From: a virus
DNA length: 62,075 bases
Direction: 5' to 3' (one strand)
IMG/VR virus record: IMGVR_UViG_3300009176_000031
Span: 1-62,075 of that record
Under the pieces are notes generated by a model. It had not been told where the DNA came from, did not search any database, and worked only from the letters and a program-made list of their open reading frames with translations. This document shows positions 1,041-57,020 of the stretch, piece by piece. Within the stretch, counting starts at the first letter, position 1, and every line of letters begins with the position of its first letter. Made by a program: the position numbers and the translations under genes.

Positions 1041-1046
1041 AGTTTG

Positions 1047-1580
1047 TTAAAGGGTGTCGCCCTCAACGCGGATAGTCGCACCATCGTTAGATACAGCAGC
1101 CGTATTAGCAGCCGTTCGTCTAATCCAAATGCCCTTACACTGACCAGGGGGAATATCACCTAAGGCTAGTCCTGTAGCCTTAGTAGTGGGCGCTGAGAAC
1201 GTCTGAGTTGCTGGCGCAGTATTCTCATCAGCAATCTGCTTCATCTGAGGGGAAGCACTTGCAATAACGCTAGCAGCAGTAGTATCCACACTAAGAGCAG
1301 CAACAGCGCCACCTGCTACCTCCGCAGAAATCCATACTACAGGGGAGAGATAGGTTAGTGTAGCGTGGTTGTTATGCACAAAGATTCCACGATATTCTGC
1401 TTCTGACGCAGCGTTCTCATCACCTGTAATATCATCAAACAGGTTACCTAGAGTTGCGTCAGTAATCTGCGTGGTACTAATCTGGTCACCAAGTGATCCA
1501 GCAGCCGTTCCAGCGGTAGTATTACCAGCCGCAGCAACAACACTAAATTTAAGAAGAATATCGGTAGCAGCAATAGGCAT
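1047..1580 (-). CDS. Conserved virion protein, 177 aa, module A copy
   Basis: Starts MPIAATDILLKFSVVAAAGN. Ala/Thr/Gly-rich, probably all-beta, with no motif I can name. It is almost identical to the product of 48043-48576: by eye only two residues differ (Q/A near 38 and Q/T near 115), while about 35 nucleotides differ, mostly silent. It sits between the spike and the small MPSK gene upstream of the capsid gene in both modules. A decoration, neck or spike-associated role is likely from context, but the function is not shown by the sequence. Confidence 0.85.
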   Translation of the reverse strand: MPIAATDILLKFSVVAAAGNTTAGTAAGSLGDQISTTQITDATLGNLFDDITGDENAASEAEYRGIFVHNNHATLTYLSPVVWISAEVAGGAVAALSVDTTAASVIASASPQMKQIADENTAPATQTFSAPTTKATGLALGDIPPGQCKGIWIRRTAANTAAVSNDGATIRVEGDTL

Positions 1581-1588
1581 TATCTCTC

Positions 1589-1783
1589 CTACGGTACTTT
1601 GGTGGGGTCAAGCGGAGCGGTGGATATCTTATCGGTTCTTAACTTTACCTGATTGTCAGGATTACTTTTACCCACCAAGAAACCGCCTTTACTAGCTAAA
1701 AACTGCATCTCTCTGTCAGAGAGAGAACCCGTATAGCCTAAGCCAGCATAGTAACTCATCAGATTATCAACTTTGGAAGGCAC
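1589..1783 (-). CDS. Small conserved virion-module protein (MPSK family), module A
   Basis: A 64-aa protein starting MPSKVDNLMSYYAGLGY, with the central motif GSLSDREMQFLASKG. The right-hand module has an orthologue at 49056-49241 (MPSKHDNI, GSLADRAMLLLASKG) in the same position beside the capsid gene. The function is unknown. Conservation across two otherwise diverged modules supports it as a real gene. It is probably co-transcribed with the 177-aa virion protein gene. Confidence 0.8.
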   Translation of the reverse strand: MPSKVDNLMSYYAGLGYTGSLSDREMQFLASKGGFLVGKSNPDNQVKLRTDKISTAPLDPTKVP

Positions 1784-1805
1784 TTTAATCCTCTCTATGA
1801 CAAAA

Positions 1806-1833
1806 GCCCCGGCCCATAGGGACCGGGGCCTTT
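1806..1833 (-). terminator. Rho-independent terminator after capsid gene A
   Basis: GCCCCGG at 1806-1812 pairs with CCGGGGC at 1823-1829. Read on the minus strand, the stem is followed by TTTTG. It lies directly downstream of the major capsid gene and would limit read-through, giving separate control of the abundant capsid message. The module B capsid gene also has a hairpin at the equivalent place (49262-49298). Confidence 0.85.
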
Positions 1834-1853
1834 GCCGCCTACAACACTACTGG

Positions 1854-3059
1854 TTACGCCTCAGTAATATCCTTGATGACGAAGTTGGCGTTACGCCGGT
1901 TAGTCGCTAACTCCCAGTACTTAGCGAGAATAGCCTCGTACTGGTCGAAACCGTGAACCCACTTCCAGATCGAACCATCTCGGTTAAGGAAGTGCCAGTC
2001 CGAGTCTCGATAAACTTTAAGACTCGACTCGTCAAGTCCGTACAGCGTGTTCTTAGGACAGTCAGGGTCCTCAACAAGAGGAATGTTGCCACCACCGGCA
2101 GCAAACGCAAGGCCCTTGAAACCGCCTGCGAATTCCTGCGTACCAGTGAACTGACGCTGTTGCTGCAAGAGGTTGAAGTACGAACGACGAACACCAAGAG
2201 AAGTTAGGAAGAGGGAGGTCTTAGCACCCAGGGTACGAACGAGGTCAACCTGGGTAATCATAAGAGCCTCAGAGAGCGCACGGTTGGAACCACCGTTAGC
2301 GTCTACAGTAGCCTTCCAAATCGGCACAAGGTTGGGGTCAACGTTGTGCAGCGTACCTGTAGTAGAGACAATAGACGCGAGCCCGTTAGGCTCCTTGCCC
2401 CAGTTAGCAGTACGCACAATGGTATTACCGAGCGCAGTAGTGATAGCCGTACCCGTTACAAGTGTAACAACACCAGTCGCCGGAACGATGGATGCGATGG
2501 TACGAGCTGTTCCACCGGTAATAACCGTGGAGTTGGTAGATGACGTAGTAATGTCAACAACCTGTCCAACCTCAAGGTACTGAGTGTTGGCAACAGTAAG
2601 AGTCTGTAAAGGACCAGTAGCGGCAGAAACTGTCGCCATAGTACCCACGCCGTCACCGTAGAAGATGCGAGCCTGGTCCTTAGCCACGTCATCCTTGAGG
2701 CCACTAATCTCAAGGTCCATCGTATTTGAGAACGCCTGTGTATTAGACGTTGCCAGTTCCATTAACTGACCGGTCATCTTGAGAGCACCATAACCGTACC
2801 TCAGACCGATCTGGACTCGGGTGTAACCCTGCTGTCCAGCCAGAGGAAGCTGTTCGCTCTCATTTCGATAACCGATACCCTGGTTACGAGAAATCTTGAG
2901 GGGGAATACAACGTACTTACCACCAACGTTGCTTTCCACTCCATCAGAGGTCTGTTCAATACGCTTCATACCAACCAGTTCATTCTGAAGCTGGTTCTGA
3001 AGCCGCCCCTGATAAATTTCTTTCAGTAACGTATTAACTGTACTAAGATCAGCAGGCAT
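1854..3059 (-). CDS. Major capsid protein, module A
   Basis: A 401-aa protein starting MPADLSTVNTLLKEIYQGRL. It contains GGKYVVFPLKISRNQGIGYR near residue 45, RIFYGDGVGTMATV near 130, and a C-terminal region HFLNRDGSIWKWVHGFDQYEA. The length and these conserved blocks fit an HK97-fold major capsid protein of the type found in actinobacterial podophages. It pairs with the 400-aa protein of 49313-50515, which shares the block order (GGKYVTFPLRV, VFYGDGLGTLATV, KDGSVWKWVHDYDAYEA) but is clearly diverged. It follows the scaffold gene by 8 bases and is followed by a terminator, as expected for the most abundant virion product. Confidence 0.9.
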   Translation of the reverse strand: MPADLSTVNTLLKEIYQGRLQNQLQNELVGMKRIEQTSDGVESNVGGKYVVFPLKISRNQGIGYRNESEQLPLAGQQGYTRVQIGLRYGYGALKMTGQLMELATSNTQAFSNTMDLEISGLKDDVAKDQARIFYGDGVGTMATVSAATGPLQTLTVANTQYLEVGQVVDITTSSTNSTVITGGTARTIASIVPATGVVTLVTGTAITTALGNTIVRTANWGKEPNGLASIVSTTGTLHNVDPNLVPIWKATVDANGGSNRALSEALMITQVDLVRTLGAKTSLFLTSLGVRRSYFNLLQQQRQFTGTQEFAGGFKGLAFAAGGGNIPLVEDPDCPKNTLYGLDESSLKVYRDSDWHFLNRDGSIWKWVHGFDQYEAILAKYWELATNRRNANFVIKDITEA

Positions 3060-3067
3060 ATGATTTC

Positions 3068-3838
3068 CTAACTTGAGTTGCTCTGGTCAAGAATTTTCTT
3101 CACCAGATCGCGGGTGTCTCTGCTACTCATGTTAGTGGGATCAAAAGCATTGCTGGGTGTTCCTCCACCTGCGCCCAATGGACGTGGTGAAGGCCGGTTT
3201 CCTCTTGTACGAATCTGCTCTTCCAGCGCCTTATACTCTTGAACGGCCTTCTGCAAATCTCCACCGTTTTTGAGTGCTTTCGCTAAAACAACATCTTCGT
3301 CAAACTCACCGTATTCACCCTCTAATGCTTGAAGAGTACTAGTGAGTTGAGCGTTCTCTTCGGCCTGCTGCCTCTCCTGAGTCTGTTTCTGTACCATTTC
3401 GACTACAGAAGCGAGAGTTTGTTCTAACTGGCCGAACCTTTGATCGTATGGATCGTCGCTCTCCTCGTAAGACTCTGATCCTTCCTCAAACCCCTGCTCT
3501 TCTCCACCTAGACTTTGCTGTAGCAACTGCATGAACGCATTTGGGTCCTGTTGCAGTTGCTCAGCAATAGTAACGGCTGCTTGAATATCCGCTGGGTCGT
3601 AATCGTTTAACAGCGGATCGATAGCCGAATACTTCTCCTGGTAGTCCGAGTGTAGTTTCTGGAATCTCTGAGTAGTGCTTCCGTCCCACTCTTTGAAAAC
3701 ACCCTCAGCAATTTGACGTGCAGCCGGGTCCGTAAACTTCTCTAAGTACTGAGCATACGGAGCCTCGTTGTTTGATTCCCCGCCTGTTTCTCCGAAGAGG
3801 TCCTGGGCGGCTGCTGCAACGTCGGGCTGTTCGGACAT
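3068..3838 (-). CDS. Capsid scaffolding protein, module A
   Basis: A 256-aa, acidic, Gln/Glu-rich, probably mostly helical protein. The middle (about residues 90-200) is predicted coiled-coil and contains ESDDPYDQRFGQLEQTL. It has a short basic C-terminus ending DLVKKILDQSNSS, which resembles scaffold capsid-binding tails. It is immediately upstream of the capsid gene, the standard scaffold position. Module B has a matching gene (50541-51380) with DDPYEARFAQHEQMM and a C-terminal ELVKEML. A promoter at 3888-3917 lies 43-50 bases upstream. Confidence 0.85.
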   Translation of the reverse strand: MSEQPDVAAAAQDLFGETGGESNNEAPYAQYLEKFTDPAARQIAEGVFKEWDGSTTQRFQKLHSDYQEKYSAIDPLLNDYDPADIQAAVTIAEQLQQDPNAFMQLLQQSLGGEEQGFEEGSESYEESDDPYDQRFGQLEQTLASVVEMVQKQTQERQQAEENAQLTSTLQALEGEYGEFDEDVVLAKALKNGGDLQKAVQEYKALEEQIRTRGNRPSPRPLGAGGGTPSNAFDPTNMSSRDTRDLVKKILDQSNSS

Positions 3839-3887
3839 TCCATTCCTCTCACGCCTGTACCGTGGATTGGCCCTGGGCTATGGACTA

Positions 3888-3917
3888 ATACTATCGATGG
3901 TTAACTATGTCTGTCAA
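3888..3917 (-). promoter_or_regulatory. Late promoter for scaffold-capsid genes, module A
   Basis: On the minus strand, TTGACA (3917-3912), an 18-base spacer and TAGTAT (3893-3888) form a sigma70/SigA-like promoter about 50 bases before the scaffold start. It lies in one of the few real intergenic gaps of the module. No equivalent TTGACA box is visible before the module B scaffold gene. Confidence 0.6.
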
Positions 3918-3933
3918 GCCTCTCACAAACTAA

Positions 3934-4362
3934 TTATAACTGAGTGGTTGCACTTAAGCGTTTCTTCGCCTTTTTTAACTTACGAACCATAGCCTGTTTA
4001 TTGGCCCGTCCTACAGGGACGGTACCAACAGTTTGACCGCCGGTTTTCAATTCAGCAACGCTACCGCCGTTAGTAGCGACAGGACTTGACAGCCTACGCT
4101 TGATAATCGTCTGTCGTTTAGCCCGATCCTCTGGCGTAAAACTATCTTTGCGATCCTTGCCGAACAAGTCTGGGTGGTTTTTAATAGCAATCTGACGCTG
4201 GTTCTCAGGCAGAACAGACTTAACTACCGCACCGCCCTCAGTCTTACGGGCAAATTTCTTAGGAATCGTAACCGTAGAGATTGGAGAGTTAGTTGGACCG
4301 ACCTGTTCACCCTTAACAAATCCCTTATTTAATCGACGCTTCATAGCGTTAAGGGTTGCCAT
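3934..4362 (-). CDS. Basic virion-module protein of unknown function, module A
   Basis: A 142-aa, very Lys/Arg-rich protein starting MATLNAMKRRLNKGFVKG, with C-terminus VRKLKKAKKRLSATTQL. The basic character suggests DNA or acidic-protein binding, for example a minor head protein. It lies between scaffold and the 78-aa gene, as does the basic 104-aa gene 51477-51791 in module B, though sequence similarity between the two is weak. Its stop overlaps the next upstream gene at the TAATG junction. Confidence 0.75.
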   Translation of the reverse strand: MATLNAMKRRLNKGFVKGEQVGPTNSPISTVTIPKKFARKTEGGAVVKSVLPENQRQIAIKNHPDLFGKDRKDSFTPEDRAKRQTIIKRRLSSPVATNGGSVAELKTGGQTVGTVPVGRANKQAMVRKLKKAKKRLSATTQL

Positions 4363-4598
4363 TACGCCATGCCAGCCGCGTCATCGGCCAGACGAAGAGC
4401 GTACACCTTGTCGTTCTTAGTCATCATATTAAGCCGAGCTGTGGTGAAGTATCCAGCGCTGATAGCAGTTAAACGAGCATCTAACGACGCATGGCTTTGG
4501 TAGTTGGCGGCAGTACCAAGGTTAGCACCACTCTGCGTTTTACCAACGTAACGCTTGTCAACGACCCCATCATTAGCTTCAGTATCAATCTGAGGCAT
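4362..4598 (-). CDS. Conserved small head-module protein, module A
   Basis: A 78-aa protein starting MPQIDTEANDGVVDK. Its C-terminal half, TARLNMMTKNDKVYALRLAD, matches TATLNLMTKNDLEYAVRLID of the module B gene at 51791-52018. It lies directly downstream of the portal gene in both modules. It probably has a minor structural or assembly role; no known domain is recognisable. Confidence 0.8.
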   Translation of the reverse strand: MPQIDTEANDGVVDKRYVGKTQSGANLGTAANYQSHASLDARLTAISAGYFTTARLNMMTKNDKVYALRLADDAAGMA

Positions 4599-4600
4599 AA

Positions 4601-6574
4601 CTAACTCCCTGTATCCGTAGGTGGCGCTGGCTGAGTCGGGTCCTGCTGTGGCCCAGGAGGGGGTCCAGGCGGCGCGTCAGGAGCCTGACCGGCATCAGCG
4701 GTAAGGCTAGGAGGGGCCTGTCCCGGCAAAACCATGCCTGTTCCTAATTGGTTTTGCATATCCATCATGGCATACATCTTGTGCTGAGTCACATGCACAT
4801 CATAAAGGTTCTGAATCTCAGGAGGAAGCATTTCAAACTCTTGAGACTTTCTGAACCTATTGTGAACCTCAACATGGAAACCGTGATTATCCCACTCGTT
4901 CGCCATGAGAGGGATTCCTACAGAGAGTTTAAGGTTCTCTCGCTCAGCCTGACGCCGATCCATCATTACTGATTCATAGACTCTTTCAAGTCCACCAATC
5001 CCAAGCATTTCCATACCAACGTCATTTGGTAACAGACCGTTCTTCATAGCATCCATTAAGAAAGCCTGTTTAGCAGCCTTCGACAACTGCATTGTCGAAC
5101 CGGCTTCAACCCTAACGTCGTAAGTGTTTCCTAGGTCTTTCGCTTTATAGTACTGAGCCTCGAAAGCCCCATCAGAACCCACCACACGGACGAGCCTAGG
5201 AGTATTCCAAAACTGGCTAACGTAGCCGAGAGTAAGGCGCCCAATTTTAACGATCGCATCCTCAATAGACGCTAAGGAGTATGCAAGCGCGCTATCGTCC
5301 TGTTCCTGTAGGAAGGAGATAGCGGTTGCAGCAGTAACCTGCGGGGGAGTGTTACCCCGCGAGATTTCGTGCTGACCACTAATGTCGTCCATATCGCTAT
5401 ACAGACGATCAACGAGGTCGTTAACGTAGGGGGGAATCGACTGTAATGGTAAAGGCTGGGGAGGTGGGAAACCGGGAATGTATTCGATAACCTGACCGGG
5501 TTCCGACGTAATCCTACGAGGGTCTACAGAGCCCTTTGCAGCAAGTAACTGAGGCTTAGACATTCGGTTCTTTGCTTCAACAATTTGCGACCTTGTTCGG
5601 TTGACCTCACGCTGTAACGGAATAAGGTCTACAATTACAGATTCGCAATAGAACCGACCAGTAGGAATATCATCCAGTTTAGCAAATGGGTACATACCGT
5701 GATCGTAAGGGTAACTCTGTTCGTTGTGAACGAGTTTATCTCCTACCATCAGCAGGTACGCACCCTCTGGATACTTCTCATAGTTTCCAGGCTTAATCCA
5801 ATATTCAAGACAAAGTACTTCTTCACGCTTAGGTTTCTCAACACCGATGACGTTCATAAAGGCGTCATCTAAGGGGTTATCAGTACTCGCTACTAATTTC
5901 TCACCTACGTCACCGTAGTTAGCTTTAGCCCACTCCAAAGATTTTGTCATTACGTGGAGCACGTAGGGCTGATATTCGATATCCTCTTGCTCTAAATTAG
6001 GAACAAAGAGGTGGTAGGGGTCAACTCGCTCGTAGCAAATTTCACCCTTTTGATCGCTATCTTTGTCGATCGCTTCGGGGTCCCAATAACACTTGATGAA
6101 TCCGTTACCAGTGTTAGCACTCCACCAAACAGCCTGCCGTAATACTTTCTGGATATTTTTACAACTCCACTGAGCGGAGAAGATCATCTCGGCTACCCGA
6201 GCCGCTACAATATCCCTATCTTCGGACGACAGGGGGGCTACCGTGAAGATAGGCTTATTGGCAGTAAGTTTAGCAATTAGAGTACGAATAATGGGACGGA
6301 TACGGTTAATGATAAGACGTACTCGCCAGGGTGGAGCGTCAGGTACTCTAAGTACGTATCCAGCAGGGGACGCGGACGTATTCGTAACGACGCTATTCTG
6401 TTTACCACTATAAAAAGCGAGGTTAATCTGCCACTGACGCTCTGTAGTTAGCCTAGTATCCCTAGCGCGCTTGTATTGCTCTTGCGCCCAGCCGATGACT
6501 TCTTTTTCTTGGCGACGTTCTTTCAACCCACCCAAAATACTATGGGCGGGCGGTGAGGTTGCGTACTCACTCAT
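4601..6574 (-). CDS. Portal protein, module A
   Basis: A 657-aa protein. The N-terminal part RLTTERQWQINLAFYSGKQN is followed by PWRVRLIINRIRPIIRT, a pattern typical of podovirus-type portal proteins. Mid-protein blocks include PLQREVNRTRSQIVEAKNR and ISGQHEISRGNTPPQVTAA. The C-terminus is Pro/Gln/Gly-rich. The module B portal (52011-54176, 721 aa) shares all these blocks (NKIRPIIRTELAKLTA, ISGQHEISRGQNPSQVTAA). The portal forms the DNA entry ring at one capsid vertex and docks terminase. Its start overlaps the stop of the membrane-protein gene 6571-6942 by four bases (ATGA), suggesting coupled translation. Confidence 0.9.
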   Translation of the reverse strand: MSEYATSPPAHSILGGLKERRQEKEVIGWAQEQYKRARDTRLTTERQWQINLAFYSGKQNSVVTNTSASPAGYVLRVPDAPPWRVRLIINRIRPIIRTLIAKLTANKPIFTVAPLSSEDRDIVAARVAEMIFSAQWSCKNIQKVLRQAVWWSANTGNGFIKCYWDPEAIDKDSDQKGEICYERVDPYHLFVPNLEQEDIEYQPYVLHVMTKSLEWAKANYGDVGEKLVASTDNPLDDAFMNVIGVEKPKREEVLCLEYWIKPGNYEKYPEGAYLLMVGDKLVHNEQSYPYDHGMYPFAKLDDIPTGRFYCESVIVDLIPLQREVNRTRSQIVEAKNRMSKPQLLAAKGSVDPRRITSEPGQVIEYIPGFPPPQPLPLQSIPPYVNDLVDRLYSDMDDISGQHEISRGNTPPQVTAATAISFLQEQDDSALAYSLASIEDAIVKIGRLTLGYVSQFWNTPRLVRVVGSDGAFEAQYYKAKDLGNTYDVRVEAGSTMQLSKAAKQAFLMDAMKNGLLPNDVGMEMLGIGGLERVYESVMMDRRQAERENLKLSVGIPLMANEWDNHGFHVEVHNRFRKSQEFEMLPPEIQNLYDVHVTQHKMYAMMDMQNQLGTGMVLPGQAPPSLTADAGQAPDAPPGPPPGPQQDPTQPAPPTDTGS

Positions 6575-6942
6575 TTATCGTCCCTAGGAAAGAAGGCGTC
6601 TTGCATTTCTTCCTGGTATTCCGACACTTCCCCAACGGGAATTAATCCAACAAGATTCTGATATTTGGCCGCTTCTTGCTCATCTGTTCCAGTCGGCCAA
6701 TAAGGGTCATCCGAAAATGTCGTCCCACTGTTGTGTAGTTGCCCCTGTAAGGCCGCTAGGGTCATGGGGTCCTTCGACAGAATCAGACTCATCAGTTTCG
6801 AGTTGTGGTTCCTCTCCTGTGTCAGAAGTTCCGTCAGTATCTTCATCGGAGACGAAGGGGAGAGTTTCCGCTTGAGATACCACAGCAGGCTCAGACAAAG
6901 CAGCGTCACTAAGGTCGAGTAGACCGATAGCACCAAGAGCAT
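6571..6942 (-). CDS. Small membrane-anchored protein overlapping the zinc-finger gene, module A
   Basis: A 123-aa protein with one N-terminal hydrophobic helix (about residues 2-22), a helical segment with KDPMTLAALQGQ, and the motif PTGTDEQE near residue 84. It overlaps the upstream zinc-finger gene 6707-7240 by 236 bases in another frame. Module B keeps exactly the same arrangement at 54124-54552 (hydrophobic helix, KDLQTLAGLTQ, PTGTDEDE), so the reading frame is under selection and not a chance ORF. The function is unknown; the nested layout recalls spanin pairs, but no lipobox is evident. Confidence 0.75.
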   Translation of the reverse strand: MLLVLSVYSTLVTLLCLSLLWYLKRKLSPSSPMKILTELLTQERNHNSKLMSLILSKDPMTLAALQGQLHNSGTTFSDDPYWPTGTDEQEAAKYQNLVGLIPVGEVSEYQEEMQDAFFPRDDK

Positions 6943-7240
6943 TTAGGACGCCTTCCGCTTTATCTAGCCTATCGCTTAACCCCTTAAGTCTAAGATCACG
7001 CTGGTGTCCATCTGAGAGAACACGCAACATGGTCGCAGGAGAAGCAGCGCCATACTGTTCGGCCATTTCCAAAACACAATAGGAACAAATATAGACTACT
7101 CCATAAAAGTCATCAGAGTGTCCACTATCCGTCATACCACGTTCGTCACTATTGCCAGAACGTCCACAAAACTTGCAAACACCTGGCGCTGCGTAAGCAC
7201 CATTTGCAATAACGGGAAATCTGGCCGTTGGCCCAGTCAC
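6707..7240 (-). CDS. Zinc-finger/coiled-coil protein, module A
   Basis: A 177-aa protein. Residues 22-25 (CKFC) and 52-55 (CSYC) form a likely four-Cys zinc site. It is followed by a helical region (LSDRLDKAEGVLNALGAI) and a very acidic C-terminal tail. The module B orthologue 54269-54808 has CTTC and CENC at matching places and the same acidic tail. Its 3' 236 bases also encode the membrane-protein gene in another frame. It sits between portal and terminase; it may be an assembly or packaging accessory, which is inference. Confidence 0.75.
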   Translation of the reverse strand: MTGPTARFPVIANGAYAAPGVCKFCGRSGNSDERGMTDSGHSDDFYGVVYICSYCVLEMAEQYGAASPATMLRVLSDGHQRDLRLKGLSDRLDKAEGVLNALGAIGLLDLSDAALSEPAVVSQAETLPFVSDEDTDGTSDTGEEPQLETDESDSVEGPHDPSGLTGATTQQWDDIFG

Positions 7241-7861
7241 TTACGACCGCTTGGGAGGCAGGTCGCTCTTTGACTCAGACTTAGACTCGGACGCCTTAGA
7301 CTCGGACGCCTTAGGGGTGGAAGCCTTAGGCTTCTCTTCAACCCTGTAGTCTAAGGAAGTACCAGTGACGCGCTCTTCGTTTGGCTTAACCGTAACAGCG
7401 CTAGCCGCAGCCTTCTGGAGTTCCTCGTCCGACTTACCTTCCAGGTCGTCAAGGAAACTCGGGCCACCCTGTCCACCGTCATCATAAGCACCGGCGGGAG
7501 CACCCATAGGCGTAGCAGCCGCACGACCCTCATTAACAGCCTGGAGACGGTCGGCGTAAGAACTCTGACCAGTACGAACCACAACGTTAGGCTCTGAGAA
7601 AACCTCGCGCTCAACAATAAACGCAGGCTTAGCCTCTAACCCCTGTCGGGCAGCCGCAGGGTTGCTCATTGTGTTGTCGTGGGGCTCCGTAGTAAACGGG
7701 CTGTATCCAATGCCGAGGTTGTCGTAGTCTGGCTCTCGTCCTTCAATACGAGCCCGGTAGTCCTCAAGACGACGACGATCCTCTTCGTCGGAGTAAATAC
7801 CGGGGGTACGTCCGTGCTTACCTTCATGGACGTTGTAATACTTTGTTTCCTCTGTAGCCAT
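7241..7861 (-). CDS. Acidic virion-module protein upstream of portal cluster, module A
   Basis: A 206-aa protein. Residues 8-55 carry YYNVHEGKH, PGIYSDEED and REPDYDNLGIG, which match YNPHEALQ, PGVYLDVVE and REPDFDNLPAG of the module B gene 54869-55366. The C-terminal half is low-complexity with repeated Ser-Lys-Glu units (KASESKASESKSESKS). A minor head protein is possible, but no known domain is recognisable. A gap of 77 bases containing TCTACAGGGG separates it from the terminase gene upstream. Confidence 0.75.
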   Translation of the reverse strand: MATEETKYYNVHEGKHGRTPGIYSDEEDRRRLEDYRARIEGREPDYDNLGIGYSPFTTEPHDNTMSNPAAARQGLEAKPAFIVEREVFSEPNVVVRTGQSSYADRLQAVNEGRAAATPMGAPAGAYDDGGQGGPSFLDDLEGKSDEELQKAAASAVTVKPNEERVTGTSLDYRVEEKPKASTPKASESKASESKSESKSDLPPKRS

Positions 7862-7938
7862 TACTAACTCCTTAAAGGCTTGACCGGCTGGCCGTGGGGC
7901 CAGTCTACAGGGGCCGCCTCAGGGGAGTCCAGTTAATG

Positions 7939-9486
7939 TCACCAATCAGTACCTAATTCATCTGTTGTCCATTTAGTAGCGTACTCACTCCACTCGCCGT
8001 ACTCTTTTGGCAAATCTGCTGAAACCCAGTCGCTTACCGTCTGCTCTCCTACAGAAGCAGCGACTAGATTTAACGGGTTCTCGTTGGGTTTGCTGTCCTC
8101 CCACTCAGGGATATGCAACTCTGGACGAGACATAATGAAGTACCGCAGCGAGTCGCAGGCATGGTCGTTCTTCTTCTGTGGCTTCTCCTTCTTATTGTGC
8201 CTGTGGGCTGTCTTTTTGTTAGTGTACCTATCCCACGCTAGACGACCTAACTCCCAGATAAGCTTCTCACAGTCCGACGTAACGAGCCACATCGGCTTAC
8301 CATCGGGGAGGATAGTATTTAGGTATCGTCGGACCCTGATAACGCCGCTATCGATATCGTTATTCCCAAGGAGAATAGGAATACCAAACTTAATGTACTC
8401 CTCGTAAACAGAAGTACCAGTAACAGGGTTTCGGCCGACAATGCTAGGATCACCAGTGTAAGTGATAGGAGGTCGTCCAAAGGCCGCTGAATATTCGAGG
8501 ACTGTTTTAGCATGTTTATCGATGGTCCACCCATCTTTATAGTGTTCGTGGAACGTGATAACTCGTCCACTATCGGGATCAACAGCATGCCAAAGCCAAG
8601 CGGTAGGGTTAGTTAATCCGTGATCCATAGAGGCGTGTATTTGCCAATGCGTGGGAATTTCCACAGGATTAATAACGTGCGTGTCTTTGGAGAACATAGG
8701 GTACACTTTTCCAGCGATTTCAACAAATCGTCCATGAACACGAGCGTTAACTTCTTCCTCATCCATACCCGAACTAAGAAAGTCAATCTCGGCTGGGGAA
8801 ATATAGGGATTCTCTGTCATATCGATTTCGATAATCTCTACCGCACCGAGTTTGTTGTCTATCCCCGGTTCGTACAGGTCATCGAAAACCCAGGTCATTC
8901 CCTCTACCGGAGTCATGGTGATCCATAAACTACCACCAGTGTCTACTAAACGCGCGCGGCACTCACCGTAGATATCCTGAGGTGGTTCCTCATCAAAGTG
9001 GATAAAGTGTCGAGACGTGCCAGAAAACTTCTCCAAGTCCTGTTCGTAGGACATTAACTCTACAAATGAACCATTCTGAAAATTAAGAATGTGAGTTTGA
9101 TTGTCGTAAGCACTATACCAAGAACCACCACGTAACTCAGAGATAGGAGTAAAGCGTAGTAGGTTCGGTATGATAATCTTCTCCATGCCGTTCGTAAAGT
9201 CCGTCGATACAATTCGTCCACGTACAGGTGCATCCGGTGTTCTTCGGAAGGGATGCTTCCCCCGCAACCAGAACAAATCCTCGGTAATTCCTCCGACTGT
9301 CTTTCCACTTCGGTTACCGCCAATATAGAGTTTAATTCGACTCTGTGATTTGTGAAACAGTTCTTGCTTAGCGTGAGGCCGATAACCGTCAATGTTGGGT
9401 TCGATTGCCTGACGCTTTAACTTCTCGGCAGCCTCTCTAATAGCATCGACTGTTGAGACAGGTTGGTTAGTCTTGGGGCGAGCCAC
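7939..9486 (-). CDS. terL: Terminase large subunit, module A
   Basis: A 515-aa protein, the DNA-packaging motor. Walker A is GGNRSGKT at residues 56-63, Walker B with catalytic acid is FIHFDEEPP at 161-169, and the coupling motif is SLWITMTP at 186-193. The C-terminal RNase H-like nuclease has acidic residues near D288 (ASMDHGLTNPTAW), D346 (YTGDPSI) and D441/D445 (NDHACDSLRYF). The length and motif order are complete. The module B copy 55452-57020 shares all motifs but is clearly diverged. The start at 9486 overlaps the stop of the fibre gene by one base. Confidence 0.95.
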   Translation of the reverse strand: MARPKTNQPVSTVDAIREAAEKLKRQAIEPNIDGYRPHAKQELFHKSQSRIKLYIGGNRSGKTVGGITEDLFWLRGKHPFRRTPDAPVRGRIVSTDFTNGMEKIIIPNLLRFTPISELRGGSWYSAYDNQTHILNFQNGSFVELMSYEQDLEKFSGTSRHFIHFDEEPPQDIYGECRARLVDTGGSLWITMTPVEGMTWVFDDLYEPGIDNKLGAVEIIEIDMTENPYISPAEIDFLSSGMDEEEVNARVHGRFVEIAGKVYPMFSKDTHVINPVEIPTHWQIHASMDHGLTNPTAWLWHAVDPDSGRVITFHEHYKDGWTIDKHAKTVLEYSAAFGRPPITYTGDPSIVGRNPVTGTSVYEEYIKFGIPILLGNNDIDSGVIRVRRYLNTILPDGKPMWLVTSDCEKLIWELGRLAWDRYTNKKTAHRHNKKEKPQKKNDHACDSLRYFIMSRPELHIPEWEDSKPNENPLNLVAASVGEQTVSDWVSADLPKEYGEWSEYATKWTTDELGTDW

Positions 9487-10586
9487 TACGCTACCTTTGC
9501 TTCTAAAGCAACAATACGAGCCTTTAAGTCTTTGATCGTCTCTCTAGATTCCTTCACCAGTTCTTGAAGGGCTTGGATGATGATAGGAGATAGTTGTCCA
9601 TAGTCGATACCCATAGGAGCATCATTTTCATCCTTAGATACAACCTGAGGATAGATTTCGGTAACATCTTCTGCAATCAAACCTGTTTCAACTTTATCTG
9701 GAGTTTCAGTCATTTCTGTACGAAGATAGTCTTTTACGTTAAATTTCATCAGAGTTTTAATGCCTTCAAACCGGGTAGGAACTATATTTGCCTTAACATA
9801 TTTAGAAGAAGAAACTACAAACGATGCCGCAGCCATAGACCGCCAGACAGTTCTAGCGTTATCGTTAGCGTATAATTGTGAGTTAGACGAAAAAATTAAA
9901 GAAACATCTCTACTGCTCATCCAAGCAGGGTCACCAGCAACAGTAGTGTTTAAGGAGTGAATCCAACTTCCATCCCCAAACTTACTTTCCAGCATACTGC
10001 AACGGAACGGATTAGTTCCATTTGGGTAAGTGGCAACTCCCGATAGATATGGGTGAATACCCTGTGCATCAGCGTTGTTGTACCAGCCGTATCCAGAAAC
10101 CAGTGACCTAAACCAACCACTAGGCTGAAAGTCAACAGTTGAGGTTACAGTACCAGCAAAACTCGCACCAGCCCTTAGTACAGCCAGTTTCCCTAGTTCA
10201 TCCAAGGTCATGCCGGTCTGTTGACCAGTAGTGAAATTATTGGTAGTAGCAAAATGCATCCGAGTGCCGTAAGCACCGGACTGTTGAACGTAAATCCCAG
10301 CCTGCGCTTTAGGGGTAGTCCCAGGCACTACCCAAGAGATTCCGGTAGCCTGATCGTTAGGCCACACCGCAGGGGCTAAAAGAACCCCCTCGGCAAAAGC
10401 GCCGGGGGTAGGTACAGTGATAACCCCAGTACTTACTGGTAAAGCCTTATGGGTATGCTTACCGGGGGCAGCCTGTAAAGGACCATTACCTAACGTGTGG
10501 TGAAAACTGTTGGGTCCAAAGTCCAGGTCGTTAATCTTATGTGCTTCATCAAAGTTGTTCTTACCTTTTCTGATATCCTCCGTCAC
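9486..10586 (-). CDS. Tail fibre/spike with C-terminal S74 intramolecular chaperone, module A
   Basis: A 366-aa protein. The N-terminus has the anchor motif DFGPNSFHHTLGNGPLQAAP (residues 22-41), shared with the module B gene 57023-57604. The C-terminus (about 270-366) has ETGLIAEDVTEIYPQVVSKD followed by a coiled-coil (LKARIVALEAKVA). This is the signature of the peptidase S74 / endosialidase chaperone domain, which trimerises fibres and is then cleaved off. The central region is beta-rich. It likely recognises the host surface. Only the anchor is conserved between modules; the distal part is completely different. Confidence 0.85.
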   Translation of the reverse strand: MTEDIRKGKNNFDEAHKINDLDFGPNSFHHTLGNGPLQAAPGKHTHKALPVSTGVITVPTPGAFAEGVLLAPAVWPNDQATGISWVVPGTTPKAQAGIYVQQSGAYGTRMHFATTNNFTTGQQTGMTLDELGKLAVLRAGASFAGTVTSTVDFQPSGWFRSLVSGYGWYNNADAQGIHPYLSGVATYPNGTNPFRCSMLESKFGDGSWIHSLNTTVAGDPAWMSSRDVSLIFSSNSQLYANDNARTVWRSMAAASFVVSSSKYVKANIVPTRFEGIKTLMKFNVKDYLRTEMTETPDKVETGLIAEDVTEIYPQVVSKDENDAPMGIDYGQLSPIIIQALQELVKESRETIKDLKARIVALEAKVA

Positions 10587-12280
10587 CGCAAACGCTCCTG
10601 GTAGTCACGACGGATATACAACTCAATTGCTTCAATCATTCCCTGACTACGGTAGCCACCGTGTGCTACAGTAGCAGCAGAGTTTCCGTCATAGGATAAA
10701 ACAACGTTTCTAAATCGCAAGTTGAGAGGGATAGGGACAAGGCTAGGAATTGTCTCAATGGGCTGGCTAGTCCTAGTTACCTTGTCCGTGACGTATGGGG
10801 ATTCCCAACTCTCTACAGTAACAGCCCAGGTAGGGGCGTATGCAGCAAACGTAAAGTTCTGTAACGAGTTGATAGCCCGCATGAAGTACAACCGTTTGGT
10901 GTGCCCGCTGTCCCCAAATCCGTACCGTTTAGTCACTAGTTTAATGACAGCCGGATTCCACGTCGCTGTACTAGTAGAAGTGAACCTCACGTCTGTAGGA
11001 CCCAAACCGTTGTTGAACTGTCCTGTTACAGCATCATTGAAGTTATAAATATCGAAAGTGAACGTGAAATCAATGCCTACAATGTGAAAGTCTGTTTTCC
11101 AACCAGCGACGAAGATACCGAACCGACCAGTGTGGTCTTTAATCATAGCGGTTGCTACTCGGTCCCCGCCACTACCCGGCCAGTTGTCACTCGCGTTAGT
11201 AGTCTTAACGTTGGGATTCCAGTAAGACCATGCACCAGTACGCATGTTCATAACGTAGGAAAACGCTGGTACGCCGGTGTAAGTTGAGTGGGTAAGAATT
11301 AAGTATCCACCCAGGATATGCAATTTAGCAAAGTTGAAGAACTCAAGCGAGTTGAAAGGGGTAACCGAAAAGCGGTCAGCAACAGTCGGGTCCGTAAGCA
11401 GGTTGACCTTGTTGGACAGGTTAATAAGGTTCCGTCCAACTACCTCGAAAACGTCCCGCCCATCAAACATAAAGATTCGGTTATCTTGAGTGCAAGCCGA
11501 GACTACAGGGTTGCTACTCACCCTTTGTAGGACACCATCTACTCCAGGGTCCTCGCTCCAGTTAAGGGTGAAGATACCTGACTTATGGAAAATCCAAATG
11601 GTGTCCGCAACCATGAACATTTCTAACAGCGGACTACTAGAAGTAGCCCCCTCAATAAGAACGTATCCCCCGTCAGGAGCCGTCCAGATAGTCGGGTCTA
11701 ACTCTTTAGACCACGAAATCCTACTGTCCCCCATTACGAACATGCGGTCTTTTTGCATGAGCGCACGGCTACCTTGGGGAATGTTAGCCGCTGTAGAGGT
11801 GGCCCACGTCCCAGTCATATCGACGTTGGTGACGTATCCGCCCGTTGAAGTCCTAGGAATGAACCAAAGCTGGTTGTTGTATTCGACTACTGTACTCAGC
11901 GCTTTGGTGGGAGTCCCGGTCATTGAGTCAGGGAGCCAAGTTAACGTGTCCGCTTCAAGAAACCCAGGGGTATAATCAAAGTACTTAACTTTGGAAGTAG
12001 ACTGGGTTTGTCCCTCATGAATAAGGAACCGGCTAGCCCCCGAAGGCATTTTAATAACGCCCAACAGTTGCATGCAAACCCGGCTAGTAGTGGGAGTGCT
12101 TAGCCCACTAAACCCAGCGTTCCAAACGGGCGGTCGATAATAGACAACCCCGTTGTCATCGAAGATTACGTTCTGAGCCAAACAGACTTCGTTATCCGAA
12201 ATCCGGTCGTCAATGTCTACTGAGTTCATCCCACCGGGCCAAGGCCCAAGAACGACTTTTTCTCTATGGGTTGGAGTCAC
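10583..12280 (-). CDS. Virion protein, 565 aa, GPxxGG family, module A
   Basis: The N-terminus VVLGPWPGGMNSVDIDDRIS with NEVCLAQNVIFDDNG resembles a family of large podophage tail proteins that begin GPF.GGIN...D.L.D.E. The rest looks like a repetitive beta fold (several DRMFVMGDSRI-like strands). The module B gene 57617-59314 has exactly the same length and the same N-terminal motif (LGPFHGGINFRD). It is probably a tail-tube or tail-knob component placed between small terminase and fibre. It overlaps both neighbours by four bases, so translation is probably coupled. Confidence 0.75.
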   Translation of the reverse strand: MTPTHREKVVLGPWPGGMNSVDIDDRISDNEVCLAQNVIFDDNGVVYYRPPVWNAGFSGLSTPTTSRVCMQLLGVIKMPSGASRFLIHEGQTQSTSKVKYFDYTPGFLEADTLTWLPDSMTGTPTKALSTVVEYNNQLWFIPRTSTGGYVTNVDMTGTWATSTAANIPQGSRALMQKDRMFVMGDSRISWSKELDPTIWTAPDGGYVLIEGATSSSPLLEMFMVADTIWIFHKSGIFTLNWSEDPGVDGVLQRVSSNPVVSACTQDNRIFMFDGRDVFEVVGRNLINLSNKVNLLTDPTVADRFSVTPFNSLEFFNFAKLHILGGYLILTHSTYTGVPAFSYVMNMRTGAWSYWNPNVKTTNASDNWPGSGGDRVATAMIKDHTGRFGIFVAGWKTDFHIVGIDFTFTFDIYNFNDAVTGQFNNGLGPTDVRFTSTSTATWNPAVIKLVTKRYGFGDSGHTKRLYFMRAINSLQNFTFAAYAPTWAVTVESWESPYVTDKVTRTSQPIETIPSLVPIPLNLRFRNVVLSYDGNSAATVAHGGYRSQGMIEAIELYIRRDYQERLR

Positions 12281-13541: not shown

Positions 13542-13559
13542 GCTATTATAGTCCTCCTC

Positions 13560-13597
13560 TTGACACCATGATATACCTGGGCTACGCTGGCTGTCAA
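13560..13597. promoter_or_regulatory. Facing promoters between HTH and RHH genes, module A
   Basis: On the minus strand, TTGACA (13597-13592), an 18-base spacer and TATCAT (13573-13568) would fire the virion operon with a leader of about 20 bases containing GAGGAGG. On the plus strand, TTGACA (13560-13565), 17 bases and TACGCT (13583-13588) points toward the RHH gene. The two boxes form an inverted repeat, so one protein could occlude both. Module B has the same geometry at 60583-60632. Confidence 0.6.
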
Positions 13598-13643
13598 GGG
13601 GATACACTAAGTTCTCCCTACAGGCAGAAGTATAGGACTAACA

Positions 13644-28246: not shown

Positions 28247-28269
28247 CGCTATTCTAATTAAAGGAGAGC

Positions 28270-28353: not shown

Positions 28354-28360
28354 TACATAT

Positions 28361-28433: not shown

Positions 28434-28509
28434 CGCTACTCATCGTCTTTTTAAGCCAAGGTTGTCTAGACCCAGCGGCCTTTCCTTAAACAGATAGGGA
28501 AGAGGACGT

Positions 28510-48576: not shown

Positions 48577-48588
48577 TAAAACTCATCC

Positions 48589-51791: not shown

Positions 51792-52018
51792 TAGATACCT
51801 GCCGCATCGTCAATAAGCCGAACAGCATACTCAAGGTCATTCTTAGTCATCAGATTCAATGTTGCAGTAGGATAACTAGCCGCTGCCGCAGCAGTAAGAC
51901 GCGCCTTAAGTGCAGCAACGTCCTTATAGTTCGTAAGAGTAACTGTCTGCGTTGCGGAACCCTGAGTGCGACGCTTATCTGTCCAACTGTGCTTACCTTC
52001 AATATCCGCATTAGCCAT
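51791..52018 (-). CDS. Conserved small head-module protein, module B
   Basis: A 75-aa protein from ATG 52018 (MANADIEGKHSWTDKRRTQG), chosen because it overlaps the portal stop; the frame is open upstream but reads through the portal's low-complexity tail. The C-terminal TATLNLMTKNDLEYAVRLID matches the module A gene 4362-4598. Confidence 0.78.
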   Translation of the reverse strand: MANADIEGKHSWTDKRRTQGSATQTVTLTNYKDVAALKARLTAAAAASYPTATLNLMTKNDLEYAVRLIDDAAGI

Positions 52019-54176
52019 TAGGAGGACCTCCCTGTGGGGGCTGTTGTGCGTTAGGATCACCTTGTGGCGGTCCTGCTTGTTGTGCGTTAGGGTCGCCACC
52101 CGGTTGCCCCGGTTGACCCGGTTGTCCTTGCTGTTGCTGAGCATTAGGGTCGCCACCAATAACAGGACCCTGACTACCATCAGGCATCTGTTGAATCATG
52201 CCACCCTGTAGTGCTAAGCGGTGAGTCATAACGTGTAACTCAAAGAGTTGCTTAATCTCATCACTAAGCATCTCAAAACCTTGAGTCTTACGGTATGCAT
52301 CATGCAGAGCAATGTGCATCTGATGATTGTCCCAGGAATTAGCCTCGATAGCATACTCAGAGTGCTGAGCATCAAACGGCATACCGTTCATCTGAGACAT
52401 AGCGTTCTGCATCTGGAACTCTGGCATATCTCCAAGAGCCTTAAGCTTAAAGTTTTCTCGCTGTGCCTGACGCTTATCAACCAGGAAGTCCTCGTAAGCC
52501 TTTTCGATACCACCGAGGTCCAGTAACTCTAAGAACATCGGTGCTTCGATAGCACCCAACTTAAAGATATCCATTAAGAAGGCTTGCTTGGCGGCCTTAC
52601 TCTTCGGTAACGCAGAGCCCGACTCAACGCGGATATCCGTATTACCTCTAAGGTCCGATCCCTTCCATTGCTGCGCTTCAAACGCCCCGTCTGTACCCGT
52701 AACGCGAACCATGCGCGCAACGTCCCAATACTGGGTAACGTACTTGAGGTAGAGTCGTCCGACTTTTTCAACGGCTTCCTCCAGACTAGCAATACTGAAT
52801 GCTAATTTGGATTCGTCTTGTTCCTGTAAGAAGCTAAGCGCCGTTGCAGCAGTAACCTGCGAAGGGTTCTGACCACGAGAAATCTCATGCTGTCCACTAA
52901 TATCATCAAAATCTTGCTGTAAACGATCAAGTTCCTGAATAACGTAAGGAGGAAGACTATCCATTGGCAAAGTATCAGGTCTATCAAAACCAGGAGTATA
53001 AAGAATAACTTGCCCTGGTTCGGAAGTAATCTGCTTAGGATTAATAGAACCTCGCGGAGCCATTAACTTCGGCTTAGCCATGAGGTTCTTAGCTTCAATA
53101 ATCTGTGAGCGTGTACGGTTGTATTCCTTCTGGATAGGAACCAAGTCCGTAACAACAGAGTCCCCGTAAAACTTACCTGTAGGAACATGGATAAACTTAC
53201 TAAACGGGAACTGACCGTGTTGATACGGGAATCCGCCAGAGACTACGCCCTGTTCATCTGTCACTACCCTAGCGGTATTCTGTACGATTCTACCACCGCA
53301 CACAGTAAGAAGCCCACCCTGCGGGAAAGCAGGGTGTCCATTCGGCTTAATCCAAAACTCCAAGCAGAGAACCTGATTCTTATTCTCCTGCTGAGCGCCG
53401 ACTAGATTTAAGAAGGAATCCTCTAGCAAATCATCTGTCGCCGTTACATTAGCAGATACGTCATATCCATAGGCACCCTTAAGCCATTCAGGGTCTTTAG
53501 TTGTAGCATGGATGACGTATGGCTGTAACTCAATATCTTCTTCTAAAAGATTCGGTACAAACAAATGGAACGGGTCTACGTGCTCAACGCAGATATCCCC
53601 GAGAGTGTCTTCATCAGGAACCTGCTTAGAAGGGTCCCAGTAAGTCTTAAAGTAAGCCGTACCACAAATGGAGCCCCACCATGTAACCTTACGTACAATA
53701 CTAGCAATAGCCTTATCCCTGTAGGCGGCAGTAACAATATTCTCGCCTACACGCGCGGCCACCACATCTTCATCCTCGGTAGTAGCCGGGATGACACTAA
53801 AGGATGGGCGCTGCGCTGTAAGTTTAGCCAACTCAGTACGAATAATGGGACGAATCTTATTCACAACAACGCGGACACGCCAAGCCGGAGCCTTCGGTTC
53901 ATATAATTGAAATCCGGTGCTCGAAGCAGCACTCGTAATTAGCCTTACATTTTGTTTACCAAAATAAAAGGCTAAGTTCGTGTACCACTGGCGCTCTGCG
54001 GCTTGACGTGACCGCTTACAGCGTGCATACTGGTCGTTCGCCCATGCCAGTAGCGCTGCATCCTCTCGGTCATCTTGAAAAGTCTTAAGAGGATTCTTAC
54101 TCTTAAGACGCTCCATTAAAGACTTAGGATCGTAACTCTCGCTGGACGAGTCCGGCGCTGTCGAAATCATCGACAT
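52011..54176 (-). CDS. Portal protein, module B
   Basis: A 721-aa protein. N-terminal RQAAERQWYTNLAFYFGKQN, VVNKIRPIIRTELAKLTAQR, PIQKEYNRTRSQIIEAKNL and ISGQHEISRGQNPSQVTAA match module A. The C-terminal 60 residues are a Gln/Pro/Gly/Asp repeat (GDPNAQQ units). It is 64 residues longer than module A. It overlaps the membrane-protein gene by 53 bases. Confidence 0.9.
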   Translation of the reverse strand: MSMISTAPDSSSESYDPKSLMERLKSKNPLKTFQDDREDAALLAWANDQYARCKRSRQAAERQWYTNLAFYFGKQNVRLITSAASSTGFQLYEPKAPAWRVRVVVNKIRPIIRTELAKLTAQRPSFSVIPATTEDEDVVAARVGENIVTAAYRDKAIASIVRKVTWWGSICGTAYFKTYWDPSKQVPDEDTLGDICVEHVDPFHLFVPNLLEEDIELQPYVIHATTKDPEWLKGAYGYDVSANVTATDDLLEDSFLNLVGAQQENKNQVLCLEFWIKPNGHPAFPQGGLLTVCGGRIVQNTARVVTDEQGVVSGGFPYQHGQFPFSKFIHVPTGKFYGDSVVTDLVPIQKEYNRTRSQIIEAKNLMAKPKLMAPRGSINPKQITSEPGQVILYTPGFDRPDTLPMDSLPPYVIQELDRLQQDFDDISGQHEISRGQNPSQVTAATALSFLQEQDESKLAFSIASLEEAVEKVGRLYLKYVTQYWDVARMVRVTGTDGAFEAQQWKGSDLRGNTDIRVESGSALPKSKAAKQAFLMDIFKLGAIEAPMFLELLDLGGIEKAYEDFLVDKRQAQRENFKLKALGDMPEFQMQNAMSQMNGMPFDAQHSEYAIEANSWDNHQMHIALHDAYRKTQGFEMLSDEIKQLFELHVMTHRLALQGGMIQQMPDGSQGPVIGGDPNAQQQQGQPGQPGQPGGDPNAQQAGPPQGDPNAQQPPQGGPPNG

Positions 54177-54552
54177 AATCGACAGTATCTCCTAATCCAG
54201 ACTCGTGTATTAGTTGCTGATGCAACTTATACTCATCTTCATCCGTACCTGTAGGTATGTATTCAGATTTAGATGTTATTGAGGAATCTGTTAAAGTCTG
54301 GGTCAGACCGGCTAGGGTCTGTAGGTCCTTCGTCCGTACTTGGTTGATTAGGCTCTGTACTCTGTCCTGCTCCATCTTGAGGGATACTTTCAGGTAATCT
54401 ATCGTCTCTTGATTCGGTCTGTTCAATAACTGTCGTATCAAAAGGAAGTTCAGTATCAGTAGAACTAATAATACTCCGAGTAGCAAGCCAACTACGAGAT
54501 AATCCGTCAATGGTACGCTCCAACTTCTGTACGTGAGAGTGTAATACGGCAT
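54124..54552 (-). CDS. Small membrane-anchored protein overlapping zinc-finger gene, module B
   Basis: A 142-aa protein. A long hydrophobic helix (about residues 15-43) is followed by a helix (LKVSLKMEQDRVQSLINQ) with KDLQTLAGLTQ and the motif YIPTGTDEDE. It overlaps 54269-54808 by 284 bases and the portal by 53. The same plan is found at 6571-6942. Conservation of both protein sequence and overlap is strong evidence of expression. Confidence 0.75.
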   Translation of the reverse strand: MPYYTLTYRSWSVPLTDYLVVGLLLGVLLVLLILNFLLIRQLLNRPNQETIDYLKVSLKMEQDRVQSLINQVRTKDLQTLAGLTQTLTDSSITSKSEYIPTGTDEDEYKLHQQLIHESGLGDTVDYVDDFDSAGLVQRELRS

Positions 54553-54808
54553 TATGCGCTAAAAGAGTATCACGCTCTTGCTCAACAGCGTCAAACTCAG
54601 ATTTAGTAAACGCACCAAAAACAGCCGCTAACTCTAACGCGCAATTTTCACAGAAGTAGATATTTCCAAAAAACTCTACGTAGTTCTGAGGGTCTGCAAA
54701 AGTCTCACGTGAGTTAGACGCCGACTTCCCGCACGTAGTACAGGAAGCCGGCGTCATCATATTACCTGCTGCAATAGGTAATACACGGCCCGAGGCATCT
54801 AACTTCAC
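54269..54808 (-). CDS. Zinc-finger/coiled-coil protein, module B
   Basis: A 179-aa protein. CTTC (23-26) and CENC (53-56) form a zinc site, followed by a coiled-coil (ERDTLLAHNAVLHSHVQKLE) and an acidic tail (DEGPTDPSRSDPDF). It is orthologous to 6707-7240. The 3' half encodes the membrane protein in another frame. Confidence 0.75.
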   Translation of the reverse strand: MKLDASGRVLPIAAGNMMTPASCTTCGKSASNSRETFADPQNYVEFFGNIYFCENCALELAAVFGAFTKSEFDAVEQERDTLLAHNAVLHSHVQKLERTIDGLSRSWLATRSIISSTDTELPFDTTVIEQTESRDDRLPESIPQDGAGQSTEPNQPSTDEGPTDPSRSDPDFNRFLNNI

Positions 54809-55451: not shown

Positions 55452-57020
55452 TTACCACTCGCCGCCCATCTCTTCATCTAATACAAAATCTGAGCCGCCT
55501 GGAATTACGTTGAAATCGCCCTGCCTGTTATTTTCGCGCTGCTCTAACATCTGCCAGTCTACTATGTGATCGTTAGGATAGACTACCGGCGCATCAAGCG
55601 GGTTATCTGTCTGGCGCTTAATCTCTCGTCTAGCGTCGTAGTCACCTGTAAGGTCTGGCCGGGACATAACAAAATAACGAAGGCTATCACAAGCGTGATC
55701 GTCCTTCTTATGCGGGGCTTCAATAGGGTTGTTTTCAGACTGGCTCTTACGATTACTATATGTCTTCCATCGATATCGGGTTAATTCTTTAATAAGATGA
55801 GAACAGTTTTTAGTGACGTGCCAGTTTGCTCGTCCATCAGTTCTAGTTCGCATGTAATTGGCAACTCGTTGGATACCGGCGCTAACATCGTTGTTACCCA
55901 ACGTAACAGGTACACCGTACTTAATGTACTCTTGTTGGATACTGGTTCCCGTAATTGGATCTGTGTTTCTAATGCTGGGATCACCAATGTAATAGTCCGG
56001 TGCCCGTTTGAGTTGCTTGTTGATTTCATGTACTCGCTTAGCGTGCTGTTCAACTGTTTCGCCTGACTTATAGTGCTCTTCAAAAGTAAGGAGTGCACCG
56101 TCCGGTGAGACCGAATGCCAGAGCCACGCCGTCGGATTGTTAAACCCGGCGTCAAGAGACGCAATCCAAAGCCAATCTTTGGGAGGGGAAAAGGATGCAT
56201 CAATAACATGCGTACCGCCGGGGCGCGGGTCAAACTTCTTGTAAATAAGTCCGCCGAGTTGGATGAACTTGCCATGAACGCGCGCCTCCCTATCATCCTC
56301 GTCCAGCGATGAAATAAACTCCTGAACCTCACCTTCACTAAGGTGAGGATTTTCAGTCATATCTACAATAATTACATCAATAAGAGGACTGCCAAGTAAA
56401 CCTGGCTCATACATAATGTCATAGACCCACGTCATACCTAACAGTGGAGTCATCGTAAGCCAAAGTGACCCACCTGTATCAATAAGGCGAGCCACGTTCT
56501 CAACATAAATAGCCTCTGGAGGCTCTTCATCAAAATGAACAAAGTGTCTACTTGTACCAGCGAACTTATCAAGGTCCTGGTCGTAAGACATAAACTCGAC
56601 GAAGGAACCATTTTCTAATGTAAGAGTACGTAGTTGATTATTGTAAGCCGTAAACCATGATCCTCCCTTAAGTTCTGAAGGCGGTAACCATCGTGCTAGT
56701 TCAGGCTTGACAATCTTCTCAACACCCCACCCAAAGTCTGTAGAGACAATACGTCCTCTGACGGGAGGTGGAGGTGTTTGTAAATAGGGATGCTTACCTG
56801 TAAGCCACCAGACGTCTTCAACGACACCACCAGTAGTTTTTCCTGATCGGTTACCACCAATATAAAGACGTCGTTTCTTTGGGGATTTATGGAAAGCCTT
56901 TTGCTTAGCGTGCGGCACGTAACCCAAAACATTTGGCCTACGCGCGCCCGCAGACAACTTTTCGCTAATGAGCCTTAGTGCTTCTTCTGGCGTACTGATT
57001 GTCTCTACTTTGCGGGCCAC
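55452..57020 (-). CDS. terL: Terminase large subunit, module B
   Basis: A 522-aa protein. Walker A GGNRSGKT (55-62), Walker B HFVHFDEEPP near 160-169, SLWLTMTP coupling motif, nuclease ASLDAGFNNPTAW, YIGDPSI and KDDHACDSLRYF. All catalytic residues are present, so both terminases of this window look functional. Divergence from module A is large outside the motifs. Each is adjacent to its own small terminase and portal, which suggests module-specific packaging sites. Confidence 0.95.
   Translation of the reverse strand: MARKVETISTPEEALRLISEKLSAGARRPNVLGYVPHAKQKAFHKSPKKRRLYIGGNRSGKTTGGVVEDVWWLTGKHPYLQTPPPPVRGRIVSTDFGWGVEKIVKPELARWLPPSELKGGSWFTAYNNQLRTLTLENGSFVEFMSYDQDLDKFAGTSRHFVHFDEEPPEAIYVENVARLIDTGGSLWLTMTPLLGMTWVYDIMYEPGLLGSPLIDVIIVDMTENPHLSEGEVQEFISSLDEDDREARVHGKFIQLGGLIYKKFDPRPGGTHVIDASFSPPKDWLWIASLDAGFNNPTAWLWHSVSPDGALLTFEEHYKSGETVEQHAKRVHEINKQLKRAPDYYIGDPSIRNTDPITGTSIQQEYIKYGVPVTLGNNDVSAGIQRVANYMRTRTDGRANWHVTKNCSHLIKELTRYRWKTYSNRKSQSENNPIEAPHKKDDHACDSLRYFVMSRPDLTGDYDARREIKRQTDNPLDAPVVYPNDHIVDWQMLEQRENNRQGDFNVIPGGSDFVLDEEMGGEW

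Follow-up and report, generated by a model that had tools for sequence, protein, structure and literature searches.

In a group of short-tailed actinobacterial soil phages, the gene for a small membrane protein lies between terL and the portal gene and overlaps a zinc-finger (ZnF) gene in a different reading frame. This overlapping gene is real and near-universal in the group; the gene family is new, although overlaps of this type are already known. Our analysis started from the window, by which we mean the whole stretch of DNA under study, an IMG/VR virus record of 62,075 bases. Its closest named relatives, judged by portal and TerL, are Arthrobacter Jasminevirus phages, Cellulosimicrobium phage DS1, Microbacterium phage Shocker and the Manatee Spring phage MW202795.

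The window holds two copies of the module, A and B, both on the minus strand. In the A copy, the membrane-protein gene (6571..6942, 123 amino acids) shares 236 nt (6707..6942) with the ZnF gene (6707..7240, 177 amino acids), its frame being +1 relative to that of the ZnF gene. The membrane gene and the portal gene (4601..6574) have 4 nt in common (ATGA), and terL is at 7939..9486. In the B copy, the membrane gene (54124..54552) encodes 142 amino acids from an ATG, or 128 from a TTG at 54510; it overlaps the ZnF gene (54269..54808, 179 amino acids) by 284 nt with the ATG start or 242 nt with the TTG start, and the portal gene (52011..54176) by 53 nt, while terL is at 55452..57020. The TTG has GGAG upstream of it and corresponds to the start position in a 71%-identical relative (L009), and it would be the better-placed start. 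The first-pass annotation had already placed the two pairs at 6571-7240 and 54124-54808, with overlaps of 236 nt in A and 284 nt in B, and these values are exact by sequence. It had also called the gene nested: the overlap is real, but full nesting is inexact, because only about 63% of the length of the A membrane gene is shared with the ZnF gene and its 3′ end enters the portal gene. The interval between terL and ZnF in the A copy is occupied by an uncharacterised acidic gene (7241..7861), which is conserved and, like its B homologue (54869-55366), has an N-terminal motif YN.HE....PG.Y and an acidic C-terminus; the B homologue had no PHROG match. No Rfam family was found in window positions 6000-8000.

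Several features concern the record as a whole. Across its stretches 1-13600 and 34000-60900, terL, the portal gene and the major capsid gene each occur twice, and positions 1-398 resemble 45131-45531 (97%), as do 1047-1582 and 48043-48578 (92%). Judging by its sequence, the record may represent not one virus but two related podophages that were merged during assembly, in which case the A and B copies would come from two phages. The early region carries genes for tRNA-Leu(TAA) and tRNA-Lys(TTT) at 28173-28434; a tRNA-Asn call at 49995-50088 lies inside a capsid gene and is probably false. The terL-ZnF-membrane-portal module is also present in a 46,429-base contig of phage-genome size (L166) in the assembly of Streptomyces griseosporeus JCM 4766.

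A tblastn search of the phage collection with the A membrane protein gave no match. Since the protein is too diverged for such a search, we used portal and terL as seeds, and gathered loci with portal and TerL profiles that are blind to the nested gene, removing one spurious portal hit. This yielded 115 distinct terL-portal regions, every one of which has a +1-frame ORF that overlaps the upstream gene and ends at or inside the portal start. An N-terminal hydrophobic membrane helix is encoded in 114 of the 115, a few of them scoring slightly low, and the exception is MW202795 (L006). The membrane gene always adjoins the portal gene, and in this set its distribution is as wide as that of the portal. 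The CxxC...CxxC pattern occurs in 107 of 116 upstream genes tested. On average, the overlap is 225 nt long (range 95-329), the membrane protein has 124 amino acids and the ZnF protein 176; the one remaining sense frame is open across the overlap at none of 114 loci. The earlier claim that the membrane protein is conserved between terL and portal is thus borne out by regions that were found without using the gene. We also looked for loci in which the frame is interrupted and the phage nevertheless kept, which had been named as grounds for doubting the gene. No interrupted frame was found; MW202795 and its relative L177 lack the helix and keep a shorter +1 gene.

The first-pass annotation had argued that both frames code from motifs conserved in each. 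One of these, TLAALQGQ of the A membrane protein (6739-6762), does lie within the overlap. However, PTGTDEQE (6673..6696) lies past the ZnF stop codon, and both CxxC pairs of the A ZnF protein (7166-7177 and 7076-7087) are likewise outside the overlap, so these motifs show that each protein is conserved and do not test double coding.

More direct evidence comes from permutation and substitution. We shuffled the synonymous codons of the ZnF gene and checked the +1 frame for openness and hydrophobicity. The frame remained open in 6.5% (A) and 3.8% (B) of shuffles, and the observed hydrophobicity was reached in 0.4% (A) and 0% (B). Across loci, the frame was open in a mean of 19% and a median of 12% of shuffles per locus, and at 105 of 114 loci the observed helix hydrophobicity was exceeded in fewer than 5%. 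When the codons of the membrane gene were shuffled instead, the ZnF frame stayed open in 11% on average. We then counted differences by codon position in non-overlapping pairs of relatives. Where only ZnF is encoded, the values for positions 1/2/3 are.168/.109/.371; in the overlap, numbered by the ZnF frame, they are.266/.165/.155; and where only the membrane protein is encoded, numbered by its own frame, they are.170/.110/.419. In the overlap, the peak of change has thus left the third ZnF position for the first, and this first position serves the membrane gene as its wobble. In the overlap, dN/dS is 0.28 (NN/NS; 95% interval 0.19-0.36) for the membrane frame and 0.87 (NN/SN; 0.66-1.11) for the ZnF frame, and amino-acid identity between relatives is 76% in the membrane frame versus 65% in the ZnF frame, which is always open and acidic there. 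The membrane protein is therefore firmly constrained, while the ZnF tail, though its frame stays open and its composition acidic, can vary almost freely in sequence.

Initiation signals point in the same direction. A Shine-Dalgarno match of at least 4 nt precedes 80% of 114 membrane-gene starts, compared with 55% of ZnF starts and a background of 23%. The start is ATG in most loci, under a start rule that itself prefers ATG, and an in-frame stop lies a median of four codons upstream across loci. In the A copy, a TAA in the membrane frame abuts the ATG, and a Shine-Dalgarno-like GGAAGG is found at 6951..6956, inside the ZnF gene. These patterns support a putative start and ribosome-binding site of the membrane gene's own within the ZnF gene. 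The earlier proposal that both frames are coding is hence backed by codon-position rates, dN/dS-type counts and ribosome-binding-site enrichment, with the membrane frame as the strongly constrained one. At 108 of 114 loci, codon usage in the overlap is closer to that of the genome when read in the ZnF frame, which favours that frame as the ancestral one, even though constraint is now stronger in the membrane frame. The same codon fit is what could be said for there being no separate gene, the +1 frame being a by-product of ZnF codon usage or a frameshifted extension of ZnF, but this is almost certainly wrong, as the permutation and substitution tests contradict it, ribosome-binding sites are enriched at the internal start, and the stops beside that start leave almost no room for a frameshift and rule out a fusion with ZnF.

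The way in which the helix is written helps to explain how two messages can share the same DNA. Codon position 2 of the membrane frame is position 3 of the ZnF frame, and a T there gives hydrophobic codons. At the ZnF wobble, T makes up 72% over the helix, 37% upstream, 29% after the helix and 37% in terL and portal; as the enrichment is confined to the helix, it looks imposed by the helix. The two messages would be compatible in that the helix needs only T at second positions, which are ZnF wobble positions, and beyond the helix the ZnF protein has presumably become an acidic disordered tail that tolerates the demands of the membrane frame. Gene E of phiX174, within gene D, is in the +1 frame and likewise has its helix written by the wobble T of the upstream frame (PMC8227390). 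The likeness thus extends to the shared strand, the +1 frame and the path from upstream-wobble T through codon-position-2 T to a membrane helix (PMC8227390). There are also clear differences. The overlap here is partial, whereas E is fully nested, and the phages are tailed dsDNA phages. Unlike in the D/E pair, conservation is higher in the membrane frame, and the tail of the outer gene is relaxed; unlike in phiX174, T is enriched locally (72% versus 37%) and not across the genome; and the lysis role of E is without support here. Phage membrane proteins in overlapping frames are also known from the Rz/Rz1 spanins. In contrast to these, the proteins of the window match no spanin family, and the gene does not lie in a lysis cassette.

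An AlphaFold2 model of the A ZnF protein has a C4 zinc domain at residues 1-65, a helix at 68-104 and an unstructured acidic tail over the membrane gene. Each of the zinc-finger cysteines is present in 97-98% of 114 members, and they are lost in Jasmine and Shocker. The ZnF proteins of the window matched no PHROG or Pfam family, and the lone relevant family match is phrog_37518, of unknown function, which is the ZnF homologue in Jasmine. The C4 arrangement is like that of the ClpX C4 zinc finger (PF06689), to which there is a weak structural match (2ds5_A: Z 3.8, rmsd 2.7, 43 residues aligned). In sequence, however, the A protein scores E 0.83 and 10 bits against PF06689, under the Pfam cut-off of 27; just 2 of 82 family members match this profile at all (best E 0.0015), and the ZnF protein, unlike ClpX, lacks an AAA+ domain. 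Foldseek searches with the model returned very weak matches to zinc domains in the PDB and, among viral models, a single one of 175 residues (A0A898KB96), perhaps the ZnF homologue of phage DS1 itself.

The membrane proteins share a layout of an N-terminal membrane helix, a second helix, a helix with a conserved S-K-D-x-x-T-x-x-x-L pattern, and an acidic tail. For the A protein, AlphaFold2 places helices at residues 2-27, 32-55 and 59-71, the last containing SKDPMTLAALQ, followed by weak C-terminal helices and an acidic tail that carries PTGTDEQE; pLDDT is about 80-97 up to residue 60 and drops thereafter, and pTM is only 0.35. The flank before the membrane helix averages 5 residues, and in 96% of loci K and R are more abundant on the C-terminal than on the N-terminal side of the helix. 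By the positive-inside rule, the short N-terminus is predicted to face outwards and the C-terminus to lie in the cytoplasm. PHROG and Pfam scans of the window membrane protein gave only chance-level or unrelated matches, with none to holin families. Foldseek with the model returned no useful match. Searches of PDB sequence profiles gave weak or spurious matches only (those to Tako8 look spurious), and literature searches for this overlap found nothing.

Annotation of the gene is missing from eight published Jasminevirus records and from phage DS1; among Jasminevirus records, L005, L175 and L176 have the overlapping gene without annotation. In the Jasmine record NC_041875, gene numbers skip from 13 to 15 and a gap of 95 nt is left before the portal gene. 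In Shocker, the gene is annotated as gp19 (L004:5580-5930), but with a start at 5679, which is 99 nt past the start at 5580 and omits the helix.

A true absence of the helix is seen in MW202795 and L177, a 70% relative, which have a shorter +1 gene. A portal tree, built from this single gene with a quick method, groups the two together within a helix-bearing clade (support 99), so the helix was most simply lost once. Their products retain the coil and the acidic tail, with 34 identities in 87 positions. Loss of the helix in this lineage shows that membrane anchoring is not always needed, and the fact that the rest of the protein was kept argues against a holin. A holin or an exclusion protein would not be expected to survive such a loss, but a protein with a core job in the cytoplasm or the virion could.

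As a whole, the data are best explained by a real overlapping pair whose membrane protein would be a core part of the packaging-portal module, a reading that we consider somewhat more likely than not. The link to the portal is suggested by gene order and conservation. The protein would be anchored on the cytoplasmic side of the membrane, with its cytoplasmic portion binding the portal or an early head intermediate. It could then either aid portal or prohead assembly at the membrane, or sit at the portal vertex and be ejected with the DNA into the host membrane; these are two sub-models of the packaging-portal explanation.

In T7, genes 6.7 and 7.3 immediately precede portal gene 8, and we know of no overlap of the present type among T7 genes. 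The T7 portal barrel carries 12 copies of gp6.7, a small portal-associated protein that is ejected (PMC11784390). This protein offers a precedent for the sub-model in which ours would be a minor component of the virion, packed at the portal or core, that leaves with the DNA and inserts into the host membrane. This is a plausible reading that we hold tentatively. It suits the fact that Jasmine, which belongs to the group, is a podovirus by morphology (PMC5513430), the general likeness to gp6.7 and gp7.3 as small podovirus proteins acting at portal and tail (PMC11784390), and the conserved soluble part that outlives helix loss. On the other hand, no sequence or fold match was found, the word ‘transmembrane’ is absent from PMC11784390, and a hydrophobic N-terminal helix would need to be stored within the virion.

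The other sub-model casts the protein as a tether at the membrane or a chaperone that helps the portal or prohead to assemble and is absent from the mature virion; we hold it only slightly less likely than the first. The predicted N-out/C-in orientation in 96% of loci, the acidic cytoplasmic part and the constant position beside the portal gene would all fit it. To our knowledge, the T4 gene with the comparable role, gene 40, is not beside the portal gene. T4 proheads begin on the membrane with gp40, the viral factor required for the membrane-bound portal initiator (PMC9958956), so the likeness lies in the role proposed here (PMC9958956). However, no homology to gp40 was found, T4-like membrane assembly is not known in this group, and MW202795 and L177 do without the helix.

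A lysis protein, either a holin or an amurin like phiX174 E, would share the encoding logic of D/E (PMC8227390) and the single N-terminal helix. It is nonetheless improbable, because the gene sits between terL and portal, matches no holin family and lacks the helix in one lineage, and because the Jasminevirus phage Brad has a separate cassette of a membrane protein and lysin A. Small phage membrane proteins often serve superinfection exclusion, but this or another accessory membrane function is very improbable here, as accessory genes vary in presence and place and this gene is at one place in all 115 regions.

Comparable genes may exist further afield. Small terL-portal ORFs with an N-terminal hydrophobic stretch are found in distant podoviruses, namely Bacillus phage Pascal (gp3, phrog_14137), MW202622, MW202627 and an Omnitrophota contig (L172:2303-2650, L169:3476-3754, L174:2323-2724 and L167:4214-4540). 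Unlike the family described here, they lack the ZnF overlap and share no motif with it, and we regard their relationship to the membrane gene as a lead, not as evidence of homology. No such hydrophobic ORF was found between terL and portal in a TM7 phage, MW202554, MW202458 or a Clostridia contig. As a broader but doubtful proposal, a small membrane-anchored protein encoded just upstream of the portal gene could be a central and so far overlooked part of the machinery that builds the portal vertex or ejects the DNA in many podoviruses, whether their hosts are Gram-positive or not; in the actinobacterial clade its gene also overlaps that of ZnF, an arrangement that may couple expression of the two.

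These results identify one more conserved gene in a large group of soil podoviruses, most of them uncultured but with culturable members that infect Arthrobacter, Microbacterium and Cellulosimicrobium. They provide a strong case in dsDNA phages of a phiX174-type overlap with a helix written by wobble T, and the more than 100 homologues open the evolution of such overlaps to quantitative study. The membrane protein is also a candidate for how short-tailed actinobacterial phages handle the membrane in head assembly or DNA entry.
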